Assembly (NCBI GenBank): GCA_028873515.1
Contig: JAGWIG010000014.1
Span: 1 to 48,809 of the forward strand
Origin: Pseudomonadota bacterium
GTDB lineage: Bacteria > Pseudomonadota > Gammaproteobacteria > Burkholderiales > REEB80
Reading direction: 5' to 3'
Length of the DNA: 48,809 nucleotides
Shown piece by piece: positions 1 to 28,207 of the stretch. The notes under the pieces are model-generated. The model did not search any database. It saw only the letters and a program-made list of their open reading frames with translations, and was not told where the DNA came from. Numbering within the stretch: position 1 is the stretch's first letter; every line of letters begins with the position of its first letter. The translations under genes were made by a program, and so were the position numbers.

Positions 1-486
1 TATTTTCGTCTTAACGCATTTCATATTCATATACCCCCGTTACGTGAAATGCGTGAAGACATCCCAGCACTAATTACATTTCTGTTACAAAGCGTTACAA
101 GTAAAACTACGACAGCTTATCACAAATTTATAGACCCTTTCGTTGAGAAAATATTAATAGCTTACGAGTGGCCTGGAAACGTCAGGGAGCTGAAAAATGT
201 TCTGGAGCATTCATCCATTCTTGCAGATGGGGACAATATCTCTGTAGATGATCTTCCTCCTGAAATTAGAAAGACCCACAAAACCAAAATAATAAACGAT
301 GAAGTTGATTCCCTAAATGGTGATCTTCGTCACATGATTCATCAATTTGAACTTTCAATATTAACGAAAGCTGTTAAAGAAGCCAGTGGCGATCGACGCC
401 TCGCTGCACAAAGACTGGGAATTGGTTTGTCTTCCCTTTATAGAAAACTTGAAGAATTGGAGCAAAGAGATTCGCATTCAATCTGA
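1..486 (+). CDS. Sigma-54-dependent transcriptional activator, C-terminal part (5' truncated by window)
   Basis: The reading frame is already open at base 1, so this is the 3' end of a longer gene. The first residues, YFRLNAFHIHIPPLREMRED, are the late AAA+ region of NtrC-type enhancer-binding proteins, which use ATP hydrolysis to open sigma-54 promoters. GNVRELKN follows near residue 59, the conserved end of that ATPase module. The last 45 residues form a Fis-type helix-turn-helix (core LAAQRLGIGLSSLYRKLEEL). The GAFTGA loop and any receiver or sensor domain lie upstream and are not visible. A sigma-54-type promoter lies about 1.8 kb downstream, before the Cyc2-like gene, so this protein could act there; that link is inference. 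The family call is firm, the signal it senses is unknown. Confidence 0.88.
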   Translation, partial: YFRLNAFHIHIPPLREMREDIPALITFLLQSVTSKTTTAYHKFIDPFVEKILIAYEWPGNVRELKNVLEHSSILADGDNISVDDLPPEIRKTHKTKIINDEVDSLNGDLRHMIHQFELSILTKAVKEASGDRRLAAQRLGIGLSSLYRKLEELEQRDSHSI

Positions 487-25793: not shown

Positions 25794-26324
25794 TATTCAG
25801 ACTATTCGCAGGTTAAAAGTTTAAAATGAAACCTCATACATAATTTTGAGCCTGGATGTAAGCCTGCGCGCCAGGTGATATCTTCCAGGTTCAAGCTTAT
25901 AGCCCGGAATCCTGCTCGATTGATTGGGCTCATCGGAACAACCCTTATTTTACAGGCTCAAATGTCTTTCCCCTTTCTAAGTCGATTCAACCGAATCCAG
26001 GACTTGGCTGCCCGTTACAAATAAAGAAAGTTGAAAGCTACCAGGAAATCCTTCCGGGCTATTTCAATTGTGCATCGCTTGATACTCTCAGCGACACGGA
26101 CACATAAAAACCTGAATAGACCTATTCAAGCGAACGAAAAGCTTACCACATCTATTTTTGTATAAAAATACATAATTTACTACTTATATGCAAGTTAAGC
26201 AGTGAAGCCTTACCACGATACCAGATCCGCATACGATCAATGCTCGCACTTGAATCGTGACAAAAGTCCTGAACGCCACATTTTCCAGGTGTAAAATTGC
26301 TATACACGGCTTGATAAGGCTAGC
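25794..26324. other. Gene-free stretch downstream of the small-RNA candidate
   Basis: Stops are frequent in all frames and no coding region is supported. The part near 25800 should contain the promoter of the M23 peptidase gene (minus strand). No other structure stands out. Confidence 0.4.
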
Positions 26325-26348
26325 AAAAAAAAGCCACCCGAGGGTGGC
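26325..26348 (-). terminator. Rho-independent terminator of the small-RNA candidate
   Basis: Read on the minus strand, GCCACC-CTCG-GGTGGC is followed directly by T8. This is a textbook intrinsic terminator. No protein gene on the minus strand ends here, so it points to a non-coding transcript. Confidence 0.8.
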
Positions 26349-26550
26349 CAAAGCGGATGAAGCGCATTGAAATACAAATGACATGGGATACTCACAAGCC
26401 CTGCAATCAACCTGGTTCAGCGGCAAATCAGTCCAGAGCGGACTGTGCAAAAATTTTAGCGCCAAACAATTTAAGCGCCAGAATCTGGCTAACCATACAC
26501 ACAGCAAAATAAAACAACCATCTTTACAGTTTCCTTTCAGTGGTATTACG
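26325..26550 (-). ncRNA. Candidate sigma-54-dependent small RNA, about 226 nt
   Basis: A good sigma-54-type promoter lies immediately upstream and a perfect intrinsic terminator ends it. Between them are at least two strong local stems: GCCAG-AAT-CTGGC at 26477-26489 and CAGTCC-AGAGC-GGACTG at 26429-26445. A near-repeat (AGCGCCA twice, at about 26458 and 26474) adds to the structure. A minus-strand open frame crosses the region, but it runs through the terminator and is unlikely to be translated. A ten-codon peptide (MVVLFCCVYG) behind AAAGGAAA near the 5' end is possible. I do not recognise a known RNA family. Sigma-54-driven small RNAs such as GlmY/GlmZ in enterics are a precedent for this type of control, not a homology claim. 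Confidence 0.6.
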
Positions 26551-26560
26551 CCTATATCAA

Positions 26561-26576
26561 AGCAAGTCTCATGCCA
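26561..26576 (-). promoter_or_regulatory. Sigma-54-type promoter of the small-RNA candidate
   Basis: On the minus strand the sequence is TGGCATG-AGAC-TTGCT, one base from the TGGCACG-N4-TTGCA/T consensus, with the GG and GC 12 bases apart. The predicted start is near 26550. AT-rich DNA lies upstream (26580-26620), suitable for bending. Confidence 0.65.
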
Positions 26577-27114
26577 GTTATAATTTAATTTATTTATTAT
26601 TTATATTCAATATGATAAACACGAATCACTGACATCAACCATCCAATGCAGCCAGATTGTGATCAACCATAGTGCATAAAGCGACGGGCCTTCCCACTTT
26701 GGAACAAAAGCGAAGAATGTGAAATACAGCATTTCGTCATAACCACAGAATTACCTGACTTTCTATCTTTACAGCCTTAAATCCTTGTCATTACATTCAG
26801 AAGTACGACATAAAATTCCTATGGAATATCCATTTTTCTATATTCAGCCACCCCAACACCCATACATTGTTTATCAACACGGATAAATGGAAGGCTTTTT
26901 ACTCACCATGGGAAATTAGATATGGTATCCACAATGAATCTTGCGGTTTCATTAAAAAATTCTACAAAAACCCTGAACCCTCTACCGGATTAAAAAATCC
27001 AGCCTCAAGATAGTCATGCAGAAAACATGAGGCTGAACAGGAAAAGAAAATAAAACAATTGACTAATCAGCTAGTTGCTGTAAAAATAAGTGTCTAAACA
27101 TCAGGAGCTACATT
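26577..27114. other. Gap between the sRNA promoter and a small-protein gene
   Basis: No gene is supported. A stem AGCCTCA (27000-27006) with TGAGGCT (27028-27034) is present; on the minus strand it is followed by a T-run and could be a terminator or just a hairpin. Near 27060, TTGACT is followed by an AT-rich -10-like segment that could drive the next gene. Confidence 0.35.
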
Positions 27115-27351
27115 ATGCAAGTCTCTGGCGCGGCCTACCCGACCTTTAACAGCACCCAGACAACGCCACAAAATCAGGCGTCAAAACAGCCTCAAGTCAG
27201 CAAAAGGGTCAAGGAAGGGAATGATCAGGAAAATGATAACGACGCGGATGACTCTAAAGTCGCTTCCACCCAAAAAACACTCTTGCAACTTAACCCGAGT
27301 GTAAACAGTAATGGTCAAACCACCGGGACGCGCATCAACACAACAGCCTGA
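27115..27351 (+). CDS. Small hydrophilic protein, unknown function
   Basis: The 78-residue protein is rich in Gln, Asn, Lys and Asp with a strongly acidic middle (GNDQENDNDADDSK) and looks disordered. The C-terminus, NSNGQTTGTRINTTA, resembles an ending I have seen in several small proteobacterial proteins, which favours a real gene. No signal peptide or membrane segment is visible. CAGGAGCTACATT precedes the ATG. It is convergent with the next gene. No function can be proposed. Confidence 0.55.
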   Translation: MQVSGAAYPTFNSTQTTPQNQASKQPQVSKRVKEGNDQENDNDADDSKVASTQKTLLQLNPSVNSNGQTTGTRINTTA

Positions 27352-27401: not shown

Positions 27402-27797
27402 CTAAAAGGAATTAAAAATATCATTAACGATATTTTCACCAACCCCAAGACCCGCGCCCAAACCCAGCCCTGTCATGATATTACTGAAAAATCCACCACC
27501 TCCTGACATCCCTTGCGACCATCCCATAGGCTGCATCGTCGGCTGCGGATGAGTCTGTAACTGCATTTCAAGTTGATGAATATACTGGGCCATCTGCTGC
27601 ATAAGCATTCCAGCTGTCTGGGTATTACTCTGTTCCTTCAAGGCGATTTCCCGCAAATCCATGGCCAGTTCTCGGGCAGTAGCTTCATCTTTTGCATCAG
27701 TTTTCAGGCGCAACGCCAGGGCCTGCATGCTTTGCAACAATTCCTGTGACTGCTGCCCCAACTGGGTAGCCTGCTGTTCTGCCAACTGATAATCCAT
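27402..27797 (-). CDS. Small Gln-rich helical protein with Gly-rich tail
   Basis: The 131-residue protein starts MDYQLAEQQATQLGQQSQEL behind a perfect AAGGAGG ribosome site, which overrides a longer in-frame start. Residues 1-85 are predicted helical and Gln/Leu/Ala-rich, likely a coiled coil. The C-terminal third is Gly/Met-rich (GMSGGGGFFSNIMTGLGLGAGLGVG) and could be a glycine-zipper-like membrane-associating segment. There is no signal peptide. I recognise no family. The strong ribosome site suggests abundant expression. Confidence 0.65.
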   Translation of the reverse strand: MDYQLAEQQATQLGQQSQELLQSMQALALRLKTDAKDEATARELAMDLREIALKEQSNTQTAGMLMQQMAQYIHQLEMQLQTHPQPTMQPMGWSQGMSGGGGFFSNIMTGLGLGAGLGVGENIVNDIFNSF

Positions 27798-28207
27798 ATT
27801 CAACCTCCTTTTAAAATAATTACTCTTCCAGGTGTGCCAACCTGCAAAACACTTTCCAGAACTCGATGAATTAGTCGAAGTCATGATAATAAGCAAGCCC
27901 CGGGCTTTTGGAAAGAAATTTAACAGGATAATAGCTTACCCGTCCTACTATCAACTGAAACCATGTAAGCCGAAATGAAGCTATTCCCTCATGGCAGTGC
28001 AAAGTGACTTTTAACACCTGATATCCCATGAGCTATAAAATTTCTCATGTCCTCAGATGAGGGCTATCACATATTTTATCAACCCCGAAATATTCATTAA
28101 AGCAGGAACCCAGCCCCATTACAAACATGTTGGACTCATGAAATTGCCTCAGTAATAAAAACAGCAGATACTTGAAAGACCGATTCCAGAACTGGATAAA
28201 AGCATCG

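Follow-up and report, generated by a model that had tools for sequence, protein, structure and literature searches.

A probable NtrC/sigma-54-controlled small mRNA for a predicted one-helix membrane microprotein in a Burkholderiales genome

Introduction

Transporters, enzymes and regulators are the classical members of the NtrC/sigma-54 regulon, and the small RNAs linked to sigma-54 include GlmY and GlmZ as well as NrsZ, which is dependent on NtrC. In the passages that treat it in PMC9731577 and PMC6606865, NrsZ of Pseudomonas aeruginosa is a short, nitrogen-regulated and RpoN-dependent transcript, and the former source describes it as non-coding and places it downstream of ntrBC. The same part of PMC9731577 describes GlnZ, an RNA from the 3' end of the glnA mRNA in enterics, as a case in which mRNAs under NtrC/sigma-54 can release regulatory RNAs. 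Among small proteins, sP36 and sP26 of Methanosarcina mazei belong to nitrogen limitation, sP36 being concerned with the regulation of AmtB1 and sP26 with glutamine synthetase (PMC11456600, sections on these proteins), and the small stress-induced membrane proteins of YohP type have fewer than 50 residues and are often up-regulated in unfavourable conditions (abstract of PMC12719787).

Here we describe a short unit on the minus strand of a 48,809-nt contig (the whole stretch is hereafter called the window), which an earlier note had taken for an undescribed regulatory RNA with GlmY/GlmZ as the precedent. The unit resembles NrsZ as a short, RpoN-dependent and nitrogen-regulated transcript, its regulation being read from the sequence, but it differs from NrsZ as described in that source (PMC9731577) in carrying a conserved frame in its first half and in having other neighbours. 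It shares with GlnZ the putative NtrC/sigma-54 control and a conserved stretch at the 3' end, whereas GlnZ, as the same source presents it, comes off the mRNA of an enzyme and acts on known targets, and the mRNA in the window would encode a microprotein alone. The likeness of this microprotein to sP36 and sP26, which are archaeal and under other regulators in the sections cited, and to the YohP-type proteins, from whose description there it is set apart by its predicted NtrC/sigma-54 control, is one of description. We consider it quite probable that this unit belongs to the NtrC/sigma-54 nitrogen regulon as a small mRNA that encodes a one-helix membrane microprotein.

Predicted sigma-54 promoter, terminator and transcript

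For comparison we used G001 (MAG REEB80), which alone among 59 other genomes searched belongs to the genus of the window. The gene order is common to both genomes: three Mla-like transport genes (names from reading by eye), an ABC auxiliary lipoprotein gene, three function-unknown genes, the unit, an M23 peptidase gene and a mechanosensitive channel gene (lipoprotein, peptidase and channel named by Pfam). The features of the unit are as follows.

26660 to 26676, minus strand: NtrC-like enhancer dyad TGCACTATGGTTGATCA, matching TGCAC-N7-GTGCA in 8 of 10 letters, all 5 in the first half and 3 in the second
26561 to 26576, minus strand: predicted sigma-54 (-24/-12) promoter TGGCATGAGACTTGCT, exact motif; counterpart in G001 TGGCATGAGGATTGCT
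26325 to 26550, minus strand: predicted transcript, about 225 nt long, its start taken from the promoter and its end from the terminator
26532 to 26537, minus strand: possible ribosome-binding site AAAGGA, 14 bases 5' of the TTG, a long spacing; aligns with AAGGAG of G001
26428 to 26517, minus strand: predicted frame of the microprotein, 29 aa from TTG to TGA, (M)FYFAVCMVSQILALKLFGAKIFAQSALD, of uncertain start (TTG at 26517 or in-frame ATG at 26496)
26350 to 26427, minus strand: 3' untranslated stretch, the last 35 bases or so well conserved in G001
26325 to 26349, minus strand: predicted intrinsic terminator, stem plus T8, 7 of 7 predicted pairs unchanged in G001

The promoter letters TGGCATG-AGAC-TTGCT at 26576-26561 satisfy the sigma-54 promoter motif, TGGCAYR-N4-TTGCW, with exact spacing, and the site is kept in G001. 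The exact pattern TGGCAYGNNNNTTGCW was found once in the window, at this position, against a mean of 0.05 in shuffled sequences (present in 5 of 100). In the whole genomes it occurs six times in that of the window and six times in G001, with the reversed control pattern absent from both, and since some of these 12 sites lie inside genes on reading by eye, the match alone is little proof. One gene for sigma-54 (rpoN) was found in the window's genome. Under the general rule for sigma-54 promoters, transcription would start near 26550. At the other end, the terminator letters GCCACC-CTCG-GGTGGC-T8 at 26348-26325 are the sole match in the window even when up to three mismatches are allowed (mean in shuffles 0.01). 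A looser scan of 25800-27200 gave one terminator against 1.3 expected and is near chance, so that the weight of the terminator lies in its exact stem, its T8 and its conservation. The minus-strand TGGCATG-N4-TTGCT promoter with correct spacing, the 6-bp stem with T8 and the length of about 226 bases, all claimed in the earlier note, are confirmed at the level of sequence.

The corresponding unit of G001 consists of TGGCATG-AGGA-TTGCT, AAGGAGATAGCA-ATG, a frame of 38 codons, MIEWFCLAVLIAQIVGLGLFGEKLFSHSMLDELTAGLG, and then the terminator. Over 40-base windows, the similarity between the two genomes is raised between about 26615 and 26255; it dips at 26434-26395 and is greatest over the terminator. 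The spacer around the unit is mostly less similar, with a short peak at 26734-26675 beside the NtrC-like site. With promoter and terminator at the same place in the relative and an NtrC-like site upstream, a sigma-54-driven short transcript with its own terminator is well supported as a prediction. Just 3' of the terminator, the block 26255-26295 is also conserved in G001, CCTGGAAAAT and GGCGTT being kept. Two divergent function-unknown genes at 27115-27351 and 27402-27896 are kept in G001, the second with 83% identity, and no Pfam family reaches its cut-off for either.

A conserved microprotein frame inside the predicted transcript

The earlier note had described the region as gene-free and lacking a convincing coding frame. 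This claim did not hold, for a conserved frame of 29 codons lies inside the predicted transcript, its stop being 78 bases 5' of the terminator stem; a frame running through the terminator, which that note had set as the refutation of its reading, was not found. Over the 28 codons aligned with G001, 51 of 84 bases (61%) and 14 of 28 residues are identical, and the differences fall 9 times on first, 7 times on second and 17 times on third codon positions. The BLOSUM sum is 70 in the microprotein frame versus 30 or less in the other five frames, a protein score that three null models reached in 7, 22 and 0 of 20000 trials, and the NG86 estimates are dN 0.37 and dS 2.9 (saturated), with dN/dS about 0.12. 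The basis of this codon test is the DNA alignment of the window with G001, less the window codon TGT, which stands opposite a 3-base gap; in the final four-row peptide alignment the 3-column gap is placed otherwise. When a profile of the three other copies (see below) was run against 1909 six-frame segments of the window, the frame came first, with an E-value of 2.8e-5, the next segment having 0.57. By these measures the differences between the window and G001 follow protein coding.

As to the start of translation, the ATG of the G001 orthologue is preceded by a strong ribosome-binding site, AAGGAG, and start codon and ribosome-binding site are clear in three of the copies, that in the window having the choice of a long-spaced TTG and an inner in-frame ATG. 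Since the start ATG of G001 is missing in the window, translation would begin at TTG 26517 or at ATG 26496, the latter leaving 22 aa, or else the coding function may be decaying. In the DNA alignment a 2-base gap lies directly 5' of the window TTG, and the sole gap within the frame is 3 bases long. Another ATG, at 26521, is in a different frame and meets a stop after 10 codons.

Paralogues and spread of the family

Two copies of the microprotein gene are present in each of the two genomes, and the second copies adjoin electron-transfer-flavoprotein genes. The paralogue of G001, MLPFIFCYIAMAIQVILLQSVGNKWFSHTSPDRFPLY, lies behind another sigma-54 site, with a hotdog thioesterase gene next downstream. 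The fourth copy, MFPYLLCYAAIAVQVILLQQIGTEWFKHADPDRFSPF, was found in the window's genome by a profile of three copies (E 8e-9), and only after this match were its sigma-54-like site, ribosome-binding site and neighbourhood noticed: it is preceded by TGGTATG-ATTT-ATGCT and AGGAG, and adjoins, on reading by eye, the same electron-transfer-flavoprotein and reductase genes as the G001 paralogue. All four copies (29-38 aa) carry a hydrophobic stretch of 19 residues with a Kyte-Doolittle mean of 1.7-2.1. A profile made of the two paralogues alone missed the frame in the window (E 5), so that its link to the paralogues runs via the G001 orthologue.

The search of the order, with a profile in which the window peptide was entered as 31 aa (two extra residues ahead of the neighbour of the TTG codon), gave matches at E of 0.5 or less in 69 of 399 genomes, and below 1e-4 only in the window's genome and G001. 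In the class, 7 of 369 genomes matched at E of 0.02 or less and only the window's genome below 1e-3, G001 not being among the genomes reported; in the phylum, 3 of 398 matched at E of 0.01 or less, the third being G1079 at 0.0044. Nine of the marginal loci from the order and all seven from the class and phylum were judged by eye on the DNA to be chance matches, and the pattern TGG.A.......TGC was absent from the 250 bases 5' of the match in all of the latter seven. Plasmids searched by tblastn with the G001 peptide (E up to 1) and Pfam searched with the four copies (E up to 0.1) gave no match, and NCBIfam gave with the four copies one sub-threshold match, of 12.9 bits against a cut-off of 75. 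As far as these searches of order, class and phylum genomes go, the family is confined to the window's genome and G001, with no other convincing member. No account of it was found in the literature on sigma-54/NtrC, small RNAs and small proteins that we covered, which left most subscription journals outside its scope.

An NtrC-like site shared with nitrogen genes

The NtrC dyad motif is TGCAC-N7-GTGCA. The dyad in the window stands at -100, and TTATGCACT is also kept in G001. Taken alone the dyad is weak: in shuffles, 8 letters are reached 64 times in 1000 over the 300 bases upstream, and 46 times in 5000 when only the range -120 to -60 is scored. In all four microprotein copies, a dyad is located 91 to 105 bases 5' of the -24 element, with 8 (window), 8, 9 and 8 of the 10 letters.

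Using the relaxed pattern TGGYAYGNNNNNTGCW, we collected 40 sigma-54-like sites, 23 and 17 in the two genomes (reversed control, 2 and 4), and 8 of them have, in the range -120 to -60, a dyad that matches in 8 or more letters. These eight belong to the four microprotein genes, the two glnA genes (10 of 10 letters each), amtB (9) and a nitrate-reductase gene sharing an operon with nirB (8). None of the 32 other sites, which include those of pilA-like and flgB-like genes (named by eye), has such a dyad in this range; two of the 32 have one of 8 letters farther upstream, at -161 and -154. Once the nitrogen genes, four in number, are excluded, the probability that four dyads fall on exactly the four microprotein sites among 36 is 1.7e-5, a value to be read in view of the choice of dyad and range after the sites had been seen, and of the setting aside of the nitrogen genes before the 32 were counted. 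Among 5120 dyads (1024 half-sites with gaps of 5 to 9), TGCAC with gap 7 ranked top over the four upstream regions, which controls the choice of dyad, not that of range.

The genes called glnA and amtB were named from N-terminal pieces of 60 residues, whose matches lie below the full-length cut-offs, and of the two glnA genes only that of the window's genome was scanned, that of G001 being named by eye. For the nitrate-reductase gene, the best profile is formate dehydrogenase (519.6 bits, below cut-off), followed by NasC and NasA; the name nitrate reductase was chosen in view of its operon, which also contains nirB (above cut-off) and a siroheme methyltransferase gene. NtrC is encoded in the window's genome, with 693.5 bits against a curated cut-off of 558.6. 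Another upstream box at 26690-26706, TCCAA followed by TGG, likewise resembles its counterpart in G001 and might be a second NtrC site.

RNA folding, the conserved 3' end and other readings

The two strong stems claimed in the earlier note found no support, the folded transcript being no more stable than shuffled sequences (z -0.10, with 83 of 200 shuffles as stable or more so). In G001, 44 of the 72 predicted RNA pairs can form, among them the 7 unchanged ones of the terminator; outside the terminator, 37 of 65 can form and 28 are impossible, in a comparison of two sequences only, and from 26494 to the terminator 23 of 45 can form. Selection thus shows in the protein frame, which is conserved, but not in the predicted stems. 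Rfam includes GlmY/GlmZ; the window as a whole has no match to any family at the gathering threshold, and up to E 5 the scan gave three weak matches to unrelated families. For the covariance check proposed earlier, this Rfam part was negative, and for covariation there are only two homologous sequences. What stands of the undescribed regulatory RNA is a short, terminated sigma-54 transcript; a main function as RNA is not supported in view of the conserved frame, the ribosome-binding site in G001, the paralogues and the loss of 28 of 65 pairs.

The most conserved part of the spacer, 58 bases at 26383-26326, is 84% identical in G001, compared with 61% for the coding part, which is more than a pure mRNA requires. 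The conserved 3' end may have an additional role at the RNA level, and the unit might be a dual-function RNA, a microprotein mRNA that also yields, under nitrogen limitation, an Hfq-bound small RNA from about 26385-26325 in the manner of GlnZ. This is an unlikely reading, though one in agreement with the conserved 58 bases, the T8 terminator, an hfq gene encoded in the window's genome and the precedent of GlnZ as an RpoN/NtrC-dependent 3'-end RNA in the part of PMC9731577 that deals with it. Against it, the terminator itself makes up much of the conserved stretch, and conservation runs past it to about 26255; with two sequences only, there is no covariation test for an RNA role of the 3' end. 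A crude duplex folding of the 3' end against 31 gene starts of the window (positions set by hand) gave no usable target, in a ranking that is uninformative because long unconstrained duplexes rank first. We hold it less likely still that a dual-function NtrC/sigma-54 gene, with a lineage-specific microprotein and an Hfq-bound 3' RNA, is shifting from coding to RNA in the window species after loss of the start ATG.

A purely non-coding sigma-54 regulatory RNA, with the frame in the window as a relic, would fit the intact promoter and terminator next to a missing start codon of the orthologue, but we regard it as rather improbable, for the frame is conserved at the protein level with a single 3-base gap inside, and the broken pairs outside the terminator, the shuffle-like fold and the Rfam result speak against it. 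The peptide has the size and hydrophobicity of a type I toxin, whose translation would be repressed by an antisense RNA; this we think very unlikely in view of a control region of NtrC/sigma-54 type shared with glnA and amtB; moreover, sigma-70-like sites in 25800-27200 number four against 3.7 expected, and none is a clear candidate for an antisense promoter. A leader peptide with attenuator for the downstream peptidase gene would account for a short frame followed by a terminator ahead of a gene in the same direction, but can hardly be upheld with 531 bases from the terminator to the listed peptidase start and paralogous copies that adjoin other genes.

Proposed role of the microprotein

In our preferred reading, what was taken for a regulatory RNA is more probably the mRNA of a membrane protein of about 30 residues that had so far escaped notice and that nitrogen shortage would induce. 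The parts of this reading supported by the DNA sequence are the promoter, the terminator, the enhancer-like site, the coding frame, the paralogues with the same control region, and the ntrC, rpoN and hfq genes. Under nitrogen shortage, phosphorylated NtrC would bind the dyad at 26660-26676 and activate the sigma-54 RNA polymerase at 26561-26576, and a transcript of about 225 nt, stopping at the T8 terminator, would yield on translation a mostly hydrophobic 29-residue peptide. This peptide may insert in the inner membrane as one helix and, by analogy to sP36 and sP26, would most likely adjust a partner in or at the membrane that is used under nitrogen limitation. Two paralogous membrane microproteins per genome appear to share the control region type of the genes for glutamine synthetase and the ammonium transporter; if this is right, it suggests that tiny membrane proteins take part in the bacterial nitrogen response. 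For small-RNA candidates predicted from a promoter plus a terminator, relatives should be checked for frames shorter than 40 codons.

Other sigma-54-related observations

Another contig of the same genome (C117) carries, at about 274-470 (L034), an exact sigma-54 site before a hydrophobic frame of 31 aa that by eye is unrelated to the microprotein family. In the window, the sigma-54-like site TGGTACGTTACTTGCT at 2282-2297 lies ahead of a CxxCH-containing protein whose start is near 2348. The start of the window (1-459), which is the contig start, encodes the C-terminal piece of a sigma-54 activator of the NtrC family. Contig C160 of the same genome also has an activator fragment at 1-459 and, at about 3030, a sigma-54-like site with a short frame, similar to the window at about 3505. 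The likeness of the window start to C160 suggests a repeated region at contig ends.
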